Positions 17,206 to 63,697 of a DNA stretch of 64,000 bases are shown piece by piece. The notes below the pieces were generated by a model, which was given only the letters and a program-made list of their open reading frames with translations, searched no databases and was not told the DNA's origin. The position numbers and the translations under genes were made by a program. The stretch's first letter is position 1, and each line of letters starts with the position of its first letter. Source of the stretch: Bimastos eiseni (lineage: Eukaryota > Annelida > Clitellata > Crassiclitellata > Lumbricidae); NCBI GenBank assembly GCA_959347315.1, contig OY365809.1, positions 7,480,853-7,544,852 on the forward strand. Direction: 5' to 3'.

Positions 17206-18149
17206 CTAAGCACACACATGCGCACATACCGGTGATGTTATTTACATTTAAGACCTTTTATTGATTGAAGTGCCAGCTGTATCCGATCTCTACATGGGTG
17301 CTTCAAAACCAGGCAAAACTCCGGGACGGATAGACGATAGTAATAGAGATGTTAACTGAAGCGCATCGATGACTAGCCTTTGTTTGGAAAGCACAAGCAA
17401 AAGCCCTGCGTCGTGATTCTCTTTAAAATGGGGAGCGGCTCCCACGACTAATCCCCACCGCCCACAGGTCACTGACCAAACAAAGCATATGGGCAGTGTT
17501 TTACGCACGATCGCATGACCATCGATTCACATGATCGCCCACCACTGCTCAGGTCAGGTCGACACTGTAGTAAAAACTTTATTTAAGAGACCACTGAAGC
17601 GACGCTCTTGCAGAAAACAACGAACACTAAGGTTGCTCGCACGATACCGTGGTTTAAGGATTCGATGTTAATACGTATTTTACTTTAAAAAATGAATTAC
17701 AGAGAAAAATAACTAAACCGACTAAACGTTGAGGTAGTTGGTCGGATCATATTTTACTGCCTAAGACTTTTAACAGAAAGGTAGTGTCTGCAACAGACTG
17801 TCTGTCAGTAAACGGGAAGACGAAAAGTCAGAAGATAGAAAGGGAAAACAAGAAGAACAGCAAAGCCCAAAGTGAAACAAGGAAGAAGACAGAAGTAGCA
17901 AATTTATAACGAAGCAGACACTGAATGAGTAACGCCAGAGAGAGCGAAAGAGGAAAACTAAGCCACCTATAGGTTCATAAAAACGGATCTCAGCAGATAA
18001 AGCGTCGTAAGTCAGTCCTACGATATAACTGGTCGAACATTTCTCTATTGGAAGCGAGACCATTGACGAATTGACGAAATCAGAGAATAATTATCAAGAC
18101 TCAGTTTGACCCATCGTCCTAATATCAAAGTCAATACAAAGCAAAGGCG

Positions 18150-21100
18150 ATGAGTCTGAGGCTGGGTCTGTTCACCATCTGGTTGTTCGCCCTCTGGCTT
18201 GGCTCCCTCTCCGTTTCTCCATCAACCGCTCGTCTTCTCCAGAAGCGACAGACGACCACCAACGACACCCAATCACAGATTGGAGACATAGTTCGTCTGC
18301 TCGGACCTCGCAACCAGGTCGACCTCGTCGTTGTGCTTCACCGCTCTCAGGGCATCGGCAAGAGGAACTTTTACACCGCCGTCAGACCCCTAGTCGAGGC
18401 CCTTATGACACAGTACGCTACCATCCATCCGGACTACGTGCGAACGGCGGCCGTGACCTTCGCGGCGGATGCGACGATCGACTACGATCAGATATCTATG
18501 GGAACGAACGCAGAGACCAAATGTGAACTGTTCGCTGGAAACAATTCCGCCTGGAATAAGGTTGTCTTCAGGGATGAAGGAATGTCCGGATGCAACGTTC
18601 GCGATGGCTTCTATAGAGCCATCGATATACTCAGACAGGGAAGGCTGAACAGACCGAATGTCACTCAGGTGTGTAGGTCAACTGTATACTCACTCTGTGT
18701 GAAGCCTCGTTACATTCCTATAGTTGAGCTGTTTAGTAATTTGTAGGACTCGTTGGTTGATTTTATGGTGACCGGACAATTTGGCACTGGACAATTCGGC
18801 GCCCGGACAATTCGGCGACGGACAATTCGGCGACGGACAATTCGGCGTCGGACAATTCGGCGCGCGGACAATTTGACAATGGACAATTCGGCACCGGATG
18901 AGTTTGTAAGTGTATTTAGACCAGATGTCGGTATGTAGTAACTGACATTTTTAAAATATTCAGAATGGGAGCGAAAATAATATTCACCATATTATCCAGC
19001 ACATGTTGGCTATTGTAGAGTCATAGTTAACACATAGGGGACTGTGTCACCTTCTAACTGTTGAGAAAATTAAAGAATATTACAAATTACATCGATTTCG
19101 GTTTCTGGCTCACATAGTATTTACCAACGGCAGTAGAAATTGATAAATCCATGTCTTAACGTTACTGTACTCTTTAATCGCAATTACTCAACTTCAGTAT
19201 TTTAGGGCTGTTGTCTTCACCAGTCTCTATAATAACCAGACATGTGCTGGATAATATGGAGTATACTATTCTGCTCCCATTCTGAATATTTTCTAAATAC
19301 ACTTACAAACTCATCCGGCGCCGAATTGTCTGTCGCCGAATTGTCTGGGCGCCAAATTGTCTGGGCGCCAAATTGTCCGGGAACCGTTTTTATAACGACA
19401 CCGTTCCATATCGAAAATGATCTGGTGTCGACCTCCTCCTTTCTCCAGCTTGGGACTAACACTGTCAAAGTCCTAACAGTGGTGGAGTTAATTTGTAGGA
19501 AAACATATAGCTATATAGGGCGTACTTGGTATACCGGGTTCGAGTAGACCTGCAGTTATAGTAGACAGTTAAATGGAGAGTGTGCAAATGACGTTTATTA
19601 GTGTTTTGGACACTGCTGGATGCCCAGTACAGCATTAATTATAAAGCGAATTACTCTGAATAAAAACGGCCATGTAGTTCCATAGGTCTATCATCCTACG
19701 AATTCCAACATGAGTTCTCCTGGAGAAATTGAACCAATAATAATAACAATAGGAACGTAACCTCATTACTGCTGCTCTTGATATTACTCCCTAAGGCGAC
19801 ATAATAATTTATGTGATTTCAAGTTGGTTTCAAAAATCATCTTTTTAACTCAGTTAACTAATGATGTGCATAATTATTAGTACCACACTAAATAGGATAA
19901 GGCGGTGCTCTTTTGCTAGTCCCGCACCTGCAGTTTGTTAAGCACTCTTAGAGCGATGTATGCAATGCAATGTATACAATGCAATGTATACAATGCAATG
20001 TATGTATACCGTGCAGTAGCTAAGTGGTGAAGTTGCGATGGTCGTGTCCATTTTGGGATTAGGTGTTGGTCGTCGTTACGGATGGAGACTATACCGCTTC
20101 GGATGACCCTCTGGAACCTCAGGGAACTCTCCAGGGACCAACGATGAATGTCACCATGTTTTCCGTTGGACTCGGCGCCTGGTTCAAGCCAGGCAGCGTT
20201 CGTGCCTTCGCCTCCAATCCTTCCTACTACGGAGAGCTGGATAAGCAGTGGACCGCGCTCCTCAGGACGAACATGTCCTCCGTCGGATCAGGTAGGCCGC
20301 CCACTCAAAAACACATAGCGTATCGCATAGTATAGGATCTTCAAATTTATATAGCGCCTCTCACAGAAAAACTTTTCAGAAGTGCTCTCAGCAGTCAGCA
20401 CAGAAACTCCGTGGAAAAAGAAACGTCGATAAAGAGCGAGGAGCCGATGGAGAGAATCCAGTCATTGGTTTAGTCCTTAATGATGGAGGAAGGTCATTCC
20501 AGGTAGATGGACCCACAACAGTAAAATAAATACATAAATGCCGATGATCAGTACACTTCAGGGAGGCTCAATATAATCTCCAAAAACTATCCATAACTAT
20601 TGTTGCCTATAGTTACTGTAACTTACTGATCACACGCATCCAGGCGCAGACTTTTATTTGGGGTGGGAATTGAACTGCTTATAGTGCCGAATATATTCAG
20701 AAATATTATCGATTTATTCCTTTTCGAGCCAATGAAATGGGCCTACGAGGTGTGGACGGCGCTGCTTCTTTACCCCAATATTTGTTTTGACCAGTCCCCC
20801 AAACCAATGACTAAGTCTCCGCCACTGACAGACATGCTTGTTGGCGCCTAATAACCCCAGCATAATTGTTGTTGCAAATTTACTTACTTATTTAGCCCAG
20901 TTTGTGCCTTAGCCCAGGCGGACTACATTCATATAGCACCCCTTCCAAACTTCTACTCAGAGGCGCTCTCTGCGCTAGCCTGAGCAACTGCTGCAAATTT
21001 TGCTGACTACGGTATCAGTACTTTACTAATTGTAGCCGCAATTATACTAATTATATAATTATTTAACTGTTGATGAATGCATTTGCTGACAGACGTCAGC

Positions 21101-24100
21101 CCATTCTGGTCACGTGTTAACGACACCGTCTGCGATTATTTTGGCGCCAACTGTTCTGATGAAAATTCCGCATGCTACTGTGACGTCGACAGAGGAATCT
21201 CCGAATGCAGATGCCAGGCCGGGTTTTATCAGCAACAGCAACAGCAGCAGGATGACATTCAGTGCCAAGGTAAATCCTTAGAAAACACCTGTCAAATGGC
21301 AATCTGTGATATATATGTATGTATGAATGTATATGTATAAAATATGCATATATGTAGGCTATGTGTGCAGATATGTACGTATGTTTATATGTATGTATAT
21401 ATACGTGAGTATAGGACTATATATATATTATATATATATATACAATATGAATGTATCAATGCTTAATCAATCAATCAGTCAATCAATCATACATACTTGA
21501 TATAGCGCCCCTTCAAGATATCTACTCATAATGTGTGTATGCATGTGCATATGTCAGTATACTATTATGTATTGGTTTCTACCTATGACCATTTACGTAC
21601 ATAGCTATGTTACCAGCGTTTCACTTCATCTACAATGCGTACCCCCTACCCACAAACATATACCCCATTGGGCCATTATATTGCAGAGATTTATCTTGTC
21701 GAGAGTCGAATCCCGGACGCATTGATGTCAGCCAACGTACTTTATTCTCCCTAACATATTTGATTGGTTTACGATTCACTTATGAGTCGCAAAGTCCGTC
21801 CTTTGAAACGATCGGTTTATTAAATGTTTGGACGTGAGTGAACGGGAATCGTGACACTTAAGTGACAGAATATGCGTCTTGAGCTGCGTCAATTGTGAGT
21901 CATGAGGACGTCAAGTGGTCGTTCGGTCGAGTGTGACGGCAGAGAAGAAGGAACTTCGTGTTGCGGTCGAGACTATCCTTCGTCTTTGCAGGAAATTATC
22001 GCTCCAGTGAAGCGTTAAAGTTTACAACCTATTGAACCTACGACCAATTCTCTCTCTTCAGGTCACAGCTTCAGCGAAGAACTAATTTATCGCCTCAGTG
22101 TTACTCAGCTTTGAGTCGCTGTTAGAAATAAATAAAATATGAGCCGAGTGAGTTACTTAAACTTTCGTTTGTTTCCACGAAGAAAGGATTCAGAGAGGAG
22201 TTGAAGAGAGAGACAGACAGACAGACAGGCAGACAGACAGGCAGAGAGACAGACAGAGAGAGACAGACAGACAGACAGAGAGAAATTGTGTGACCAAGGA
22301 TGAGTAATTAAGTCAAATATTGACTCGTTGAAGAGCGGTTTGTTAGTGACGCGATCGGATTGTTTGCTTCGTGATCTGTAACGTATAGAGATTCAATGGC
22401 ACCATTATAATACGCCAGAATCTCTACACCGGATCATGAATAGAGTCATGTATCAGAGACCTATATTGTGACCATCTGTTCTCTATAAACTTATCATCAT
22501 GATCATCATCACCACCACCACCATCATCATGATCATGATCATCATCATGAGCATCATCATCATCATCATCGTCATCATCGTCATCGTCACCGTAGTATAT
22601 AGTATATACGTCACCATCACCATCGCCGTCGTCGTCGACATACGTCATCATCATCATCATCATCATTTGATTATAATGATTATTGTCATCATCGTCGTCA
22701 TCACCATCAGCATCGTCGTCATCATCATCATCATCATCCTTATTATTATTGTGATTTAAGTCTGTTGTTTATTACTATAGCTTAATTATGATGCTTCGCT
22801 GATCAACACAAAATAAATGGTGATTAGTCCAAGGTGTCTCATTTGATTTAAATAGATAGTATTTGAATGAACTAAATTTATATCGATCACTTCTTCTTCT
22901 GACCCAGCCTGTCCGCCAGATTCCTATCGAGGTGAATTGGATGATGACCAATCCTGTCGATCATGCAGTCCAGGATTCGGAACCGAACCAGCGATTAACA
23001 ACGGGTCGATTACACCAGACATCGGTTGTCAGTGCAAAGAAAACAACTGCACAGGTACTGATAATTAATAATATAGGCCTAGGCCTACCTCTGCAGTTAG
23101 GCCATTAGGCCATCTATTCTATTGCAACTCAATCATGCTCCAGTTCCGTTCCTTCACATAGGCCTAATGTTCGTTCAATTGACGATTGTATCAGCTAACA
23201 CGTGACCTGTAATAATTCTAAATATTGGCCAAATGGAAAACTCAAAGATTTACAAAGCGCCAAAGATAAGTAGATTTGACGTCAACAGAACAAACAATTG
23301 ATTCTTACTTACTTAGTCACTTACTTTGCTCAATTTTTTCTTATCATTTTCTCTGCATTCTATTTTTTAATCTCCTCCGCTTTCTCTCCTTTCATCCTTC
23401 CTCCTTTTCTTTTTCTTTCCAGTGTTTATTGTTTCCATAAAAGTCCGGCCCTCAGCATCTCTGTATTTCCATTCTTACCGCTAACCGACTTAGTCTTAAG
23501 CAATTAAGTTTCTTACACAACTGTTTAACTGATCATCGTTATGTTGATATGAGCAGATTGGCGACTGCATACTACAGTGCGTGTTATTTAGGTTTATATT
23601 CGTGTACTACGTTTAGATCCGTGCGATGAGGCTCATAATTCATGTGGAGTGAACGAAGTCTGTTCGGTTGATGTATCTACGGGTAGCCCCAGCTGTAGCT
23701 GTCTCAAGGGTTTCACTGGACCGAATTGTTCAGTCAACCAAGACGACTGTTCCGCTTCGTCGCAGTGCCTGAACGGGGCAACGTGTTACGATAAGGTAGA
23801 CGGAGTTCAGTGCGTCTGCGCACTGGGATTCAGCGGACGTAGCTGCGAACTGGATGCCAAGGATTGCATCTTCAACATCTGCGTTAGCAACCACACGCAG
23901 TCCTGTCAAGACGCAGGGAATAACTTCCGCTGCACCTGCATGTACGGATGGATCGGAGACTTCTGCGAAAACGTCGACTCAAACACCACGCCACTGTCAA
24001 CCAGTCCCACGACATCCACTTCATCTGTAACTCTGATCGCCTCACCTCCAAACGCCACAGGGATCAACGAAACAGGCAAGTGATATTCCTCTCTTCATCG

Positions 24101-25081
24101 CCCAAAGGGAACAAAATTCTTCTCAATAGTAGAACTTGGACAAACAACATCTCACGAGAGGCTCTTCTTTATAATCATAAGGCGGACCTAGCTCTGTATA
24201 AGATATCCATATCTCTAAGAGGCGAATACAAATAGATACTACGCATACGTAAGGTAACGTAACTGTGCACGAATGACATCATTGACATGCACTTAAACAC
24301 GCATTTATAGTTGCACACACACATACTGTTGACCTTAATACATTTTTACAACCCTCTATGAAAATCGCGTAAAACATCACACATAATCTAAATGCAAGAC
24401 AGAGATCGACGACTTTGATAAACAATTATACACCGTGAGAGTAAGTCAATAAGTGAGTGAGTAAGTGAGCGAGCTAGTAAGTATGCATGCAAGTAAGGGA
24501 GCGATTGCGGGAGCGGCCGAGCCAGCCATCCAGTAAGTCCCCCATTCTGTCTTCCAATATTAGGTTTGACATCTTCAACGAACCCGAGTGTCTTGGCCAG
24601 AACAGACGAGAAGAGCAGTGAACAGACGACCCTTATCATCGTCATCGTGTGCGTCATCGGTGGAGCACTGCTTCTTCTCGTCCTCATTCTCATCGTCGTC
24701 ATAGTAACGAGCAGACGAAGGCGACGGAGGCGGGAAGAGGAGGAGAGGAAGAAAGCGGCTTCCGCTGGAAGAGCGGAGTCTTTCCAGACGCCGCGCCACT
24801 TTGGAGTCCAGTCCACTAAGAATCGACTGAGTCGAACGTTTTCGGATCGGTTCAGTGGACTCTGGAAAAAGTGGACAGTACGAGGAAATGACCCAAGCGA
24901 CTGGTACAACAACGCAGGGTCAGTATCTCTCTGTTTCTGTCTTGGACTCTCTCTGTCTGTCAACCTCTTCCTCTCCCATTTCTCCTCCCTCTCTCTTTAA
25001 TCTTTATCTGTCTGTCATCCTCTCTCTATTTCTGTTTCTCAAAATTCTCTGTCTCTCTGCCTTCCTTTCTCTCTCCACTCC

Positions 25082-25144
<63 letters not shown>

Positions 25145-26222
25145 CTTATCCCTCGTATTGGGGAACGTGGAATACCATGCTGGTATTCATTCAGACCTCC
25201 ATCTTTCGGTTAAGAAAATCGTGCAAACTAAGACAACGATCCAAAAACAGTTCAACTCGAATAAACCTTCACGAATCCACGCCAAGGTTCCTTGCTGTTG
25301 GACTGCTTTGGATTCTGACCTGGAACCGATTTTTACAATACCTGCCTATCGATTTTGTTTTGAATGAGCTGTTTATATCTCAGGATAACGATTAAAATTC
25401 TGTCAATTACAATGTAGGATTCCGAGTGTGCCGAAACGAAGGTCTGGTCTACAAGATGTCAGCGACCCTCGATCAGTCGACCTTGAGGAAACTGTCGTCA
25501 CGAATGACGTAAGAACAATCATTGATAATCACGAGACACTAATAAAAAAATAGGCCTAATCGTAATCTCCAAGCTTCGAATGAGCCACTCGAAATCCAAG
25601 CGCAGTACACCAGCTTATTCGCGAGAATGGAATGATGTAGACTTGGGAAATAGTAGATATGGACAAGGTCACTAGGGTAGGCTATAATAGATTTGAACGC
25701 CGAAGTGTATAAACCCTATAAGCGTACAAGAAATCAAAGCCCACTAAGACCGTATAACCGATGCGCATTGTTTACCCACAGGAAATCTTCGTCGATGGCC
25801 GTCTGAGCGGTTGGAACTCGTACCTCAAGGACCTGGGAAAATCCGGAATACTGGAGAGCGGAGTCATCGCCCAGACGGACACACAAGAATTCGCCAAGAC
25901 GGATACTTGGTCTTTGGACTGGAAGGAGCTGGAGGAAGTGGAAGCGATGATCTCCAGTCACGAGGCAGACCAAACAATCAGCATCCAGGGAACTAGCTTC
26001 CAAATCGAGACCAACGACGGGGTCTTAGCTAGGGGAATAAGCGACGAGAAGGGAGATGGAAGCTCCGCCTCCTCTTCTTCGTCCAGGGGAGGAGCAAGAA
26101 CTATCGCTGTTGGTGCAACCAAATGCTATCTGATCGTATGGGTAACGAGACATGATGACGATAAGGCCTTTCACAAGGAAATCCAATGGGTTGTCGACCA
26201 CATCACTGCGGAAGGATACTAA
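18150..26222 (+). CDS. Single-pass membrane receptor: vWA, Cys-rich, three EGF, TM and cytoplasmic profilin domain
   Basis: Exons 18150-18668, 20063-20291, 21093-21269, 22908-23054, 23617-24075, 24564-24918, 25418-25508, 25782-26222 join in frame to 805 residues. Order: signal peptide (1-27); vWA domain (about 57-245) resembling the SVEP1 vWA, with VLVVVTDG at 174-181 but MIDAS DxSxS replaced by HRSQG at 64-68; Cys-rich region (250-357) with a CPPDSYRGE module; three EGF repeats (360-395, 402-434, 441-474); Ser/Thr linker; TM helix (about 534-558); a run of eight Arg; a basic linker with PSVPKRRSG; and a profilin-like domain (about 668-805). The last part shows profilin's WxxY start (W670, Y673), a GVIAQ segment, a hydrophobic strand CYLIVWV and the terminal HITAEGY, matching profilin's H-x5-Y end. 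Introns 2-5 are phase 1; intron 5 is GC-AG. Inferred role: adhesion receptor coupled to actin or proline-rich ligands. The fusion is read directly from one frame; expression is untested. Confidence 0.87.
18772..19380. mobile_element. Foldback element with tandem GGACAATTCGGCGAC units
   Basis: A long imperfect inverted repeat in intron 1 of the vWA-profilin gene. The left arm (18772 to about 19027) starts CCGGACAATTTGG and the right arm (about 19211-19380) ends with its exact complement. The ends carry tandem ~15-bp units with AATTCGGCG; the inner arms share GGATGAGTTTGTAAGTGTAT and TTCAGAATGGGAGC. The left arm has about 30 extra bases. No coding capacity and no clear target-site duplication. 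Confidence 0.75.
20335..20525 (-). mobile_element. LINE 3'-end fragment (L2/CR1-like)
   Basis: The minus strand translates to GPSTWNDLPPSLRT, the characteristic end of L2/CR1-type LINE reverse-transcriptase ORFs, followed by the hairpin-like AGCGCC tail shared by many short repeats in the window. It is a 5'-truncated insertion in intron 2 of the vWA-profilin gene. Confidence 0.65.
20915..20990 (-). repeat. LINE-tail repeat (AGCGCC hairpin family)
   Basis: Contains the paired motifs TATAGCACCCCTTCC and CTCAGAGGCGCTC of the same tail family as 20335 and 29230. Short 5'-truncated copy in intron 2 of the vWA-profilin gene. Confidence 0.5.
21455..21535 (-). repeat. LINE-tail repeat with (TGAT)n end
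   Basis: On the minus strand, a GAAGGGGCGCTATATCAAG core is followed by a TTGATTGATTGACTGATTG tail. The same core-plus-tail combination occurs at 35195, 57537 and 59480, so the tetranucleotide run is part of the element. Confidence 0.6.
22207..22283. repeat. (AGAC)n microsatellite
   Basis: Imperfect GACA tetranucleotide run with GGCA and GAGA variants, in intron 3 of the vWA-profilin gene. Confidence 0.9.
22491..22745. repeat. (ATC)n trinucleotide tract
   Basis: About 250 bp dominated by ATC/GTC/ACC trinucleotides. It opens long frames of poly-Ile/Val on one strand and poly-Asp on the other, which are simple-sequence artefacts. Intron 3 of the vWA-profilin gene. Confidence 0.9.
25080..25141. 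repeat. (CTGT)n then (CT)n microsatellite
   Basis: Tetranucleotide run followed by a dinucleotide run, within the longer pyrimidine-rich first half of intron 6 of the vWA-profilin gene. Confidence 0.9.
25782..26222 (+). other. Terminal exon encoding the profilin-like domain
   Basis: One exon holds the entire domain of about 138 residues, the usual profilin length (125-140). Aligned by eye to animal profilins: W670 and Y673 occupy the W3/Y6 positions, WSLDWKELEEVEAMI aligns with the helix before the central strands, ISIQGTSFQI with the strand pair carrying the GxxF/Y-type pattern, and the C-terminal helix ends HITAEGY. The tryptophan expected near profilin W31 is Ile. A Ser-rich insertion (SSASSSSS) sits between the last strands. 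Intron phase 0 immediately upstream would suit capture of a whole domain. Confidence 0.85.
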
Positions 26223-29229: not shown

Positions 29230-30727
29230 GTAATGGAGCGCTTATACAGCGCCACTCAATCAGAGGCGCTCACGATTCAACACAAAGCTAAAGAGAAAAA
29301 GGAGTCTTCAATTAAGCGCTTCCGGAAGGCAGCAGAGGAGAGAGAGAAGCTCCTTCCGAAGAGGAAAGAGGAAGCTGCGTGGAATCACCAGAAGTCCGCG
29401 GGCAGCAAAACGAAGGGAAACCCGGTGCGGAATAGTGGAGACCCTAGTGCAGAGGGCTAGAAGGTAGGCAGACCCATGTAGAGGGTTATACATCCACGCA
29501 AGGGTCTTGAAACGAATGCGTAGAGGTGCTGGGAGCCAGTGAAGGGTCCGTTTCATGAATGAAATGTGACAAAATTTTGGAATTCCACCAATTAGTCCGG
29601 GCAGCCGCATTGAGAATGGACTGGAGTGTAGAGAGTTGTGAGGAGAGTCCAATGAAGGCAATGTTGCCAAAGTCGACCCTAGAACAGATCAGAGCGCGCA
29701 GAAGCGTGGACACAGCATGCAATGAGAGCGACCGTCTAATAGAGCGGATCTGGCACACGCGATAGAAGCAGAAGAGGGAAAAGGCACTTATGTGACTAGG
29801 TAAGGATAGGTCCAAAAGAATATGGCCAAGAAAGAGGCCCAAATCTAGAAGAGATAGGGAAAAGGACATGTTGGAGGAAAGCCTGACGGAGGGCATCCAA
29901 GTCGATCCTGCCTAGATGGACCCCGCCAGATCTACTGGGTTTTGCTAAAGTCCAGGGAGAGGCGATTAGAAGAGATCCAGAAGTCCAGAACAGTGGACGC
30001 CTCCAGCATGCGCTCAATCATCTGCAAAACCGAGGAAGAGTGCCCAGGCAGATAGGCCTGTGTGTCATCAGCATACTGGTGGGAAACAATGCCGAGAGGA
30101 GGGAGGATGGTGCCTAGAGCACAAGTGTACAGAATAAAAAGAATGGACCAGGACCGAATCTTGAGGGAGGCCATAAGGAAGTGGGTTGAACGTTGAACCA
30201 AAAACCACCGCGATCGACCGGTCAGAGATAAATGAGCGCATCCAAAGGAGCTCTCCATCAGAGATACCGAAGGAAGTAGAAAGGCGGTCAAGGAGGATAG
30301 TGATCAACAGTGTCAAAGGCCGCACTTATATCGAAGAGTGAAAAAAGAGTCACTTTGCCATGGCTCCAAAGATGTCGGCTAGATGAGACAGCAGGGTTTC
30401 CGTAGAGTGAAACTTCCTGAACCAAGACTGCAAAGGAGGCATGAGAGAATTAGAACCCAGATAAGTGGTCAGCTGGAAGGCCACACAGCGCTCAAGGAGT
30501 GTAGAAAGGAAAGATGGATTTGAGCTTGGTTGTAGTAATTGCTGGAAGGGAAAACTACCGTCCTCTTGTGGAGCACTGGAACCAAAACCTGGCCTAATGA
30601 AGCATTTAAAAGTCAAAAATAGTAGACAATCATACAAGAAATGTTTTGGGAGGAAAGGTGTGAGAAAATCCAGCTCACACGATTTAGAGGGCACCACTAT
30701 GACTAATACTAATATTTGAACCCCCAC
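29230..30727 (-). mobile_element. Decayed L2/CR1-like LINE, reverse transcriptase and 3' end
   Basis: Minus-strand reading shows, in order, reverse-transcriptase landmarks in shifting frames: FQLTTYLGSNSLMPPLQSWF with FHSTETLLSHL (30.4-30.5 kb), LLDRLSTSFGISDGE and GLPQDSVL (30.1-30.3 kb), the catalytic SHQYADDTQAYL (near 30060), ICSRVDFGNIAF with AAAR (29.6-29.7 kb), LHWLPAPLRIRFK (near 29540), and the AGCGCC hairpin tail at 29230-29275. Several frameshifts and stops break it, and no endonuclease domain was recognised. It is a dead, 5'-truncated retrotransposon. Confidence 0.85.
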
Positions 30728-30734
30728 TTCTAAC

Positions 30735-31710: not shown

Positions 31711-34365
31711 TCAGCTGATTGGTTCAGAAACCCCATCGTTCACCTCAGTTGGTTCAGGCAGAAATTCATGAGTTGATAAGTCATTGTTCATTGACGGCGA
31801 CTTTCTCCTCTCGCCTTTGACATGTCCCGCATTAGCCATCTTTCCTTGACCATCCGAGTCGGAATTTGCCTCATCTGCTAGTGTTATTCTGTAGTCAACA
31901 TTTTCAACTACACAGCCTGATTCATTATCAATATCAGGTGACATGATTTCTTCTTTAACCTCTGCATTCATTGCAGCAAAACTAACATGATTTGAATCCT
32001 CATCAACCACGTCAACTTCATCCAACTCTGCTCCAACCATTTGCAAACAACGTCTCTCTTTCGAGTTAACAATGGAGTCATTACCAATTACCGCAGTTTT
32101 CACTTTCTTCAGTTTCTCGCGTCTGGCAGTTGGAAAGCCATTCTCCTTAACCTTTCGGGTTTTGCTTTTCGCGGCCTTCCTCTTCCTTTTCGGAGTGCTA
32201 TTCACAGCACTGTTGTTTACACCAGGCTCCACTTCAGTCAAAATGGTTTTGCCAGAAGACAGCTGAGGGACGTTAAAAGACGTCTTGCGATTGTGTTCGA
32301 TGGGTATCTCCACAAAACGGTTGTCGATCCTGTCTACGACCGTGGCCGAGCTCACCAATCGAGATGCCATGTGGTGGACATCGGTCAGATGCACGATCAT
32401 GCTGTCATCGCTCACAGTGTTGTACGAACACTCGGGACATGTAAAGAGCACGTGTCTGTTCTGGTGTGAGCTCAGAGTGTGAGAAAGTACGGTGTAAGAG
32501 CACTTCACACACAGATCACACAGCATGCATATGAACACGTCCCACCGACAACCGGCAAGCTCTGCATCCGAGATCGCCTGGTTATACGTCACATTCGCCC
32601 GGTCGGTCGGCTTCTGAATCATCATCAGCTTAACAAAGCATCCATTGTAGTTCAACGTATCGGCGTGCTGTTGAAGCACGTGCAGTGCAAGCGCTTTGGA
32701 ATTCGTCGACACTCTGAAGCAGTCAAAGCAAACGTAAGATGATGGTGAAGAAATGACGTCGTTGCCAGAAAGTTCATTCAGCTCTAGCGTCACAGAGAAA
32801 TCGATATCTGGGTGCAGGCCTCCGTCAAGTATTCCAGAGATGCCATGGTGCAGTTCAAGATGAATCCACAGGATCACTGGATCGACAGTGACAAAATCAC
32901 AATGCCGGCAGTTGATGAAGAGAAAAGATTTTCCTAGCAGTTCCTTCTTGTTCAAGGCAAAGGAAAGCTCTGGGTGGTCTTCGTGTAAGTGTCTGACGAT
33001 TGTCTTTGGACTTTCGGCCAATAGAGGACAGAAGACGCACTGACAGAAGAAGTGGGAGTTTCTCCACCAAACCACAGTCAACCATTGCATAACGTCTTCA
33101 GTTGGACCCATGTACATCGTGCGGACCGCATGATCGCGTGCCTCATTCATGTCTGGCAAAAGACGAACTTTGATCGAATCAGGAAATGCTGACGAGTTTC
33201 CGCTAACAAACACAGACTTCAATGCAGATCCAGTTTCAGACTTCTTTTTTAATCGTGTTTTCAAATATTTAACATTTAGATACTTTCTAACGTCGATTCT
33301 GCGTGCTAATAGCAACTCAGGAACAATAACTCTGCCTCTCACATCTCTCTTGATTGCTAACTTTGTCAGCCTCACTTCACATGGAGGCAAATTGTATTTA
33401 TCCAGATTTTCATCAGATACAAGCTCTTCAAGAGAATAATCGTTGACCTCAGACTTCACTTCCTTAGAAGATATGGAATTTTCCAATATATTTGTCATGT
33501 GAACATCTCCAACACGACTTCTGCGCGCTCGCTTTCGCGGAACCTCTGCGAATTCTCGATCTTGGACATTTTCTAAGGCTGCTTGACTTTTACTTTTTCT
33601 ACTTTGTATTGCTGGTGACTTAACAACCTGTTGTGTTTTCTTAGATCTGGCATTCTTGTTATTTTTCGTTTTTGAAGACGGCAACTTGACAGTTACATTG
33701 ACACGCTGGCCAGCAGACATCTGAACTAAATGCTGAAATGCTTCATCTTCGGGAAGCTGGCCAGCTTGCTGAAGGACTTGTACGAGTTGACCAAGGATGC
33801 TCTTTGCCATTTCTGGATTGACATTCTTCAGTGGCACAGAGTTAGGAATGTTAACAGCCTGAGTGGTGCTGGATTTTGCTGTTGTAGATCTGCAAACATG
33901 ATTTTCTGGAGATGGCTTTGTAAGTCTATCATAAAACAAATCATTTGCAGAGACACCTTGAATATTCAATTCAACGGGTCCTTCTTGGACATCTTCTGCT
34001 TGTGTGCGATCTGGAATCACGTGAATAATGTTTTCACCCAAGTCTAATGAGGCAATGGGCTGCTTAGCCAGCAACTGTGTAAGAACGGGCAAACTTTCGA
34101 TTTGAGCTGCATGACCCAACCCTGAGTCCAATAGCACATCCTCTGCTTGTGGTGCACATGCTACACTATGCGATAAGAGTTCATTGTCCACAGGTTCAAT
34201 CTCAGAAGCACTACCAAAATGATCTTGTGATGTTGACTGGAATTCAAAGGAATTGTTCTGCATGATATCAATGATCACCAGCGTCCTAGAGTCACAGTCA
34301 AAGCAAGGTGTCAATAACAAGTGATTACTAAGCTCAAATGCCAAAACCATTATGCATTTCAGCAA
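31711..34365 (-). CDS. C2H2 zinc-finger nuclear protein, 884 aa, unspliced coding region
   Basis: A single uninterrupted frame of 884 codons, far longer than chance in this AT-rich DNA. Five C2H2-like fingers: C443-C446...H464, C486-C489...H506, C546-C549...H567, C613-C616...H634, C643-C646...H664, mostly C-x2-C-x12-H-x3-5-H, widely spaced and without the TGEKP linkers of KRAB-type arrays. Two basic clusters look like nuclear localisation signals (RKRARRSR near 277; KRKRKAAKSKTRK after the fingers). The C-terminal part is acidic. It is probably a DNA- or chromatin-binding regulator, but I do not recognise the orthologue. An in-frame TAG nine bases upstream supports the first ATG (34365); the ATG at residue 35 is an alternative start. 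A TTTTAG just upstream could be an acceptor for a 5' UTR intron. It is divergent from the ferlin gene. Confidence 0.82.
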   Translation of the reverse strand: MLKCIMVLAFELSNHLLLTPCFDCDSRTLVIIDIMQNNSFEFQSTSQDHFGSASEIEPVDNELLSHSVACAPQAEDVLLDSGLGHAAQIESLPVLTQLLAKQPIASLDLGENIIHVIPDRTQAEDVQEGPVELNIQGVSANDLFYDRLTKPSPENHVCRSTTAKSSTTQAVNIPNSVPLKNVNPEMAKSILGQLVQVLQQAGQLPEDEAFQHLVQMSAGQRVNVTVKLPSSKTKNNKNARSKKTQQVVKSPAIQSRKSKSQAALENVQDREFAEVPRKRARRSRVGDVHMTNILENSISSKEVKSEVNDYSLEELVSDENLDKYNLPPCEVRLTKLAIKRDVRGRVIVPELLLARRIDVRKYLNVKYLKTRLKKKSETGSALKSVFVSGNSSAFPDSIKVRLLPDMNEARDHAVRTMYMGPTEDVMQWLTVVWWRNSHFFCQCVFCPLLAESPKTIVRHLHEDHPELSFALNKKELLGKSFLFINCRHCDFVTVDPVILWIHLELHHGISGILDGGLHPDIDFSVTLELNELSGNDVISSPSSYVCFDCFRVSTNSKALALHVLQQHADTLNYNGCFVKLMMIQKPTDRANVTYNQAISDAELAGCRWDVFICMLCDLCVKCSYTVLSHTLSSHQNRHVLFTCPECSYNTVSDDSMIVHLTDVHHMASRLVSSATVVDRIDNRFVEIPIEHNRKTSFNVPQLSSGKTILTEVEPGVNNSAVNSTPKRKRKAAKSKTRKVKENGFPTARREKLKKVKTAVIGNDSIVNSKERRCLQMVGAELDEVDVVDEDSNHVSFAAMNAEVKEEIMSPDIDNESGCVVENVDYRITLADEANSDSDGQGKMANAGHVKGERRKSPSMNNDLSTHEFLPEPTEVNDGVSEPIS

Positions 34366-34468
34366 CCTAACCTAAAATAGAGCAGTATTTTCAAAACAAT
34401 ACATTGCTTAAGTTCTAAGAGACATAATAAATTGTTTATGCAATGGCATTATTCCAAAGCATCTTGAG

Positions 34469-37314: not shown

Positions 37315-63697
<26,383 letters not shown>

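Follow-up and report, generated by a model that had tools for sequence, protein, structure and literature searches.

Can an adhesion-type receptor carry its own profilin? The question is raised by a gene on the + strand of a 64,000-nucleotide stretch of the Bimastos eiseni genome (assembly GCA_959347315.1, contig OY365809.1, positions 7,480,853 to 7,544,852; hereafter the window). A sequence-only reading had joined eight exons there into a protein with a signal peptide, a vWA domain, a Cys-rich module, three EGF repeats, a transmembrane helix, a polybasic segment and a complete C-terminal profilin-like domain. Profilin is an actin-binding protein for which more than 50 ligands have been characterised, as stated in passages of PMC1964790. 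There is about an even chance that the gene encodes a single-copy receptor whose predicted profilin-like tail is a membrane-fixed poly-proline-binding module. Its features, in window coordinates, are the following.

18150-18668, + strand: exon 1, with the start codon, a signal-peptide-like segment and the first part of the vWA domain (residues 1-173)
20063-20291, + strand: exon 2, the remainder of the vWA domain (gene model, Pfam)
21093-21269, + strand: exon 3, Cys-rich module, part one (gene model, Cys positions)
22908-23054, + strand: exon 4, Cys-rich module, part two (gene model, Cys positions)
23617-24075, + strand: exon 5, which holds EGF repeats (three by eye) and a Thr/Ser-rich stalk, with a GC-AG donor at its end
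24564-24918, + strand: exon 6, transmembrane helix (about residues 534-558), Arg561-567 and a basic amphipathic segment (597-614)
25418-25508, + strand: exon 7, a linker exon of 91 bases
25541-25546, + strand: AATAAA within intron 7
25782-26222, + strand: exon 8, profilin-like domain (residues 660-805) plus the stop codon

The eight exons do join in frame. Read from the genomic sequence, positions 18150-26222, stop codon included, yield a single open frame of 805 residues; six of the seven introns are GT-AG, and intron 5 is GC-AG with a strong donor (CAG/GCAAGT). The frame of exon 1 opens at 18123, and its ATG is the first one downstream of a stop. The guanine-plus-cytosine (GC) content is 50-57% in the exons vs. 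37-42% in the introns. Of the splice sites, the four between exon 6 and exon 8 rank, on a rough score, among the top 2-7% of the GT/AG sites of the window, and four of the ten remaining sites score below them (80-92% on the same scale). Intron 1 contains an inverted-repeat element (18766-19386), in which GGACAATTCGGC-type repeats stand opposite their own reverse complement, with arms of up to 70 nucleotides and 87% complementarity; it looks like a foldback insertion or one of the kind of a miniature inverted-repeat transposable element (MITE).

The receptor part of the architecture was borne out. A hydropathy peak at residues 5-23 resembles a signal peptide, and in a Pfam scan of the whole protein residues 58-227 matched the vWA domain (E 5.2e-13, 50 bits vs. 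a cut-off of 23.8). The Cys-rich module has 12 Cys within residues 263-351. EGF was above its cut-off in the same scan, and exon 5 alone gave 34.5 bits vs. 21.5 in three matched stretches. Apart from the N-terminal peak, hydropathy indicates one transmembrane segment, at about residues 534-558, where the 19-residue mean reaches 3.45. Since seven Arg (Arg561-567) directly follow this helix, the profilin-like tail is predicted to face the cytoplasm. The basic amphipathic segment comes later, at 597-614.

When exon 8 alone was compared with Pfam, Profilin was the sole family matched (E 2e-4), and the match covers positions 2-127 of the 127 in the profile. The score was 21.9 bits and falls under the Pfam cut-off of 25; because of this, exon 8 is filed as a divergent profilin-like domain rather than a curated PF00235 member. 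The absence of a profilin match to the last exon had been named as a result that would speak against the receptor: a match is present, below the cut-off. A profile built from six canonical profilins ranked the exon-8 open reading frame first of 266 in the window (at least 60 residues each), with 12.0 bits vs. 2.5 for the next, and the exon-8 protein beat 2,000 of 2,000 of its own shuffles (best shuffle 8.6 bits). Its E-value against this profile was 0.01, short of the HMMER inclusion threshold. With the 266 reading frames and the 2,000 shuffles as controls, a chance match to profilin was ruled out. The comparison of a predicted structure with profilin, suggested by the sequence-only reading, was also favourable: an AlphaFold model of the domain, built with four relatives, retrieves profilins, and the fold likeness spans 121 residues. 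The single sequence gave a model with a predicted local distance difference test value (pLDDT) of 36. The Pfam match and the model support the proposed profilin-like C-terminus.

Several further results weigh against a receptor with a profilin tail. The whole-protein Pfam scan had no Profilin row among its 22 families at E<=1, and the receptor locus was not among the 12 matches listed in a PF00235 search of the animal's own genome. The AlphaFold run gave five models, of which only two were confident. The profile-profile score against the profilins of the same genome was weak (probability 7.7), in a comparison too shallow to be decisive. No sequence match in the PDB was found for exon 8 or its family profile, and close kinship to any one solved profilin is thereby ruled out. 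Two of the four relatives, P0002 and P0004, gave no Profilin match in Pfam; P0003 reached 32.5 bits, above the cut-off, and P0001 22.7, below it. In the ectodomain, the metal ion-dependent adhesion site (MIDAS) of the vWA domain appears degenerate by eye, HxSxG (VVVLHRSQGIG) in place of the intact DxSxS. This motif is absent from many vWA domains, and its state here makes classical metal-dependent ligand binding doubtful.

It was asked which ligand surfaces the tail retains, using the contact residues listed for human profilin (PMC1964790, Table 2). Four of the six poly-proline contacts are identical in exon 8 (W3, Y6, H133 and Y139) and two are conservative replacements (W31 to F, L134 to I). 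Canonical controls retain four to five of the six, with 5/6 in the profilins of the same genome and 4/6 in an amoeba profilin. The identity of four contacts favours a predicted poly-proline groove that has been kept. P0004 stops short of the first three of these positions. The final 15 residues are invariant in all five family members, which points to strong constraint on the C-terminal helix, the bearer of three of the six contacts.

Copy number was assessed in the 660 Mb genome (118 contigs) by a loose first look that diverged copies could escape. One convincing locus each was found for exon 8, for exons 6-7 and for the ectodomain (the last at E<=1e-4), so only one copy of the gene was found. 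The search with exons 6-7 gave 71 matches at E<=1, of which the first two are the receptor gene and the others have E>=7.5e-4; five of these weaker matches were inspected, and all were low-complexity or transmembrane-like sequence. A repeat or multi-copy artefact was ruled out on the basis of the single loci. Canonical profilins are encoded in the same genome on contigs C10, C7 and C4, each in three coding exons. The receptor domain has no intron at either of the two positions these genes use, which suggests retroposition or intron loss; probably a soluble profilin was captured as a copy that had no introns, or else the domain lost its introns. Divergent profilin-family exons also occur elsewhere, on C17, C8, C7 (at 40.77 Mb) and C1. 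Among viral sequences in IMG/VR, 106 pattern matches included no relative.

An unlikely alternative is that there are two transcripts, the receptor ending in intron 7 and exon 8 forming a small profilin-like gene of its own, or an isoform, that starts at the ATG at 25761. This ATG lies in frame, 21 bases 5' of exon 8, and P0001 and P0002 have an in-frame Met at the corresponding place. P0003 begins MDGWNSYL, much like a free profilin. None of the relatives found has the fused reading frame: a search with residues 590-805 for relatives of full length placed none of its 1,461 candidates at E<=0.1, and a search aimed at the fusion, with 7,991 scored candidates, returned the same four relatives, none fused. 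Intron 7 itself has an in-frame stop just 3' of exon 7 and the AATAAA at 25541, which may end a form of the receptor that lacks the profilin domain, although such hexamers arise by chance here too. By the gene model, exons 6 to 8 would be joined in a single messenger RNA. Against two transcripts stand the pyrimidine-rich acceptor before exon 8, in the top 3% of the AG sites of the window on the rough score, and exon 7, which exactly restores the frame between the phase 2 end of exon 6 and the phase 0 start of exon 8. In addition, at 273 bases intron 7 is short for a promoter, GC content steps from 41% to 52% at 25782, where exon 8 starts, and the residues upstream of exon 8 vary between relatives (2-3 of 7 positions).

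If the tail does belong to the receptor, it could still act in other ways than by holding poly-proline. It is quite unlikely that it works as a classical profilin at the membrane, binding actin monomers and passing them to filaments growing at the receptor. The predicted fold would allow this, and K125 of human profilin is kept in exon 8 and invariant across the five family sequences. Only 1 of the 21 human actin contacts is identical, but five other profilins also have just 2-5 of 21, so this mapping is not decisive and gives nothing firm on actin binding. Where the animal's own profilins, like plant and amoeba ones, have the GKKG loop, exon 8 has a Ser-rich insert in which the confidence of the model is low. 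Also rather improbable is a retained fold that has taken on a partner other than actin and poly-proline. In favour of this, W31 is replaced (F in exon 8, C in P0003), and W136 (domain numbering), in the same C-terminal helix, is invariant in the family and missing from the six other aligned profilins. There is a precedent in the ectromelia virus profilin homologue, which, in the passages of PMC1964790 concerned, binds tropomyosin and keeps the fold in a model with few of the ligand residues. However, that homologue has 1/6 of the poly-proline residues in Table 2 of the same source, compared with 4/6 here.

For a receptor with a poly-proline-binding tail, a mechanism can be proposed. With its ectodomain the receptor would bind another cell or the matrix. 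Its profilin-like tail would be bound directly, with no separate adaptor, by proline-rich regulators such as Ena/VASP, formins and WAVE. Clustering of the receptor by its ligand would raise the local density of docked actin polymerases and may in this way link adhesion to the growth of filaments nearby. The juxtamembrane stretch, basic and amphipathic, would probably keep the tail near acidic lipids. Parts of PMC11974892 describe that profilin-binding sites clustered at a membrane accelerate actin assembly. The idea of the sequence-only reading, that actin assembly would be controlled directly where the receptor adheres and no adaptor would be needed, is plausible for the predicted protein. 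A fuller version is more tentative and somewhat less probable than not: an adhesion receptor would have taken a retroposed profilin as its own cytoplasmic tail and would grip proline-rich actin polymerases with it directly, so that a single protein would lead from the ectodomain to filament growth, and profilin would be fixed to the membrane and not diffuse. With profilin built into a receptor, the geometry would be inverted. In the arrangement described in parts of PMC11974892, membrane proline-rich proteins draw actin-profilin from the cytosol; here the proline-binding side would sit on the receptor, and the polymerases would come to it. The gene would then offer a natural test, simple in genetic terms, of whether the recruitment of proline-rich regulators is by itself sufficient for coupling adhesion to actin growth. 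It would also be an example of domain capture, possibly through an intronless copy.

Other features were observed in the window. On the - strand, an intronless frame of 886 residues (31711-34371) has a weak C2H2 zinc-finger match only (E 5.6e-4, under the cut-off), and broken frames at 29308-30733 resemble by eye the reverse transcriptase of a long interspersed nuclear element (LINE), with two frames giving no Pfam match. Tandem arrays are found at 39098-39654 (277-bp unit, 2 copies, 100% matches), 45687-46571 (59-bp unit, 15 copies, 96%), 59126-59390 (31-bp unit, 8.5 copies, 98%) and 44255-44494 (AGGC about 61 times). In the wider genome, contig C118 is mitochondrial DNA, as it carries COX1 by Pfam and reads sensibly with invertebrate code 5. 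Its order on one strand is nad4L, nad4, a gap compatible with ribosomal RNA, nad1, nad3, nad2, cox1, cox2 and cox3, all but COX1 named by eye. This fits the gene order of annelids, and COX1 may be of clitellate type. Among the 35 COX1 matches listed for the genome, seven reach from position 1 to position 435 of 436, and one of these seven lies on C118. The six nearly complete copies in nuclear contigs (C15, C16, C6, C5 and C4) are either large mitochondrial insertions or assembly effects.

How does this receptor compare with known systems? Matrilin, SVEP1 and similar proteins are vWA/EGF surface and matrix proteins and share the vWA, Cys-rich and EGF modules. Unlike them, the receptor has a transmembrane helix and a profilin-like tail, and we know of no vWA/EGF surface or matrix protein with a profilin domain. 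With soluble profilins (PF00235), the exon-8 domain shares the predicted fold over 121 residues, the succession of helices and strands, the majority of the contacts for poly-proline and the C-terminal GY. It differs from them in being, by the gene model, the tail of a transmembrane receptor and not a small free single-domain protein. It also has a single exon, compared with three in the profilins of its own genome, a Ser-rich insert at the place of the GKKG loop, and a sub-cut-off Pfam score. No natural transmembrane profilin was found in the open-licence literature, judged by titles, abstract starts and a few passages; in a 2021 profilin review (PMC8387879), "transmembrane" and "membrane receptor" each occur 0 times. 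This is a known fold in a predicted architecture not found described in that literature. PMC6523865 reports Neospora profilin fused to the GP64 transmembrane domain, a laboratory construct for secreted nanoparticles; it too links profilin to a transmembrane segment, but it is engineered and no natural receptor. A functional parallel is integrin, which, according to PMC4543927 and PMC8813058, reaches Ena/VASP via the adaptor lamellipodin/RIAM. The proposed gathering of proline-rich or Ena/VASP actin regulators at the membrane would be alike in both, whereas in the earthworm protein the binding module would belong to the receptor itself.
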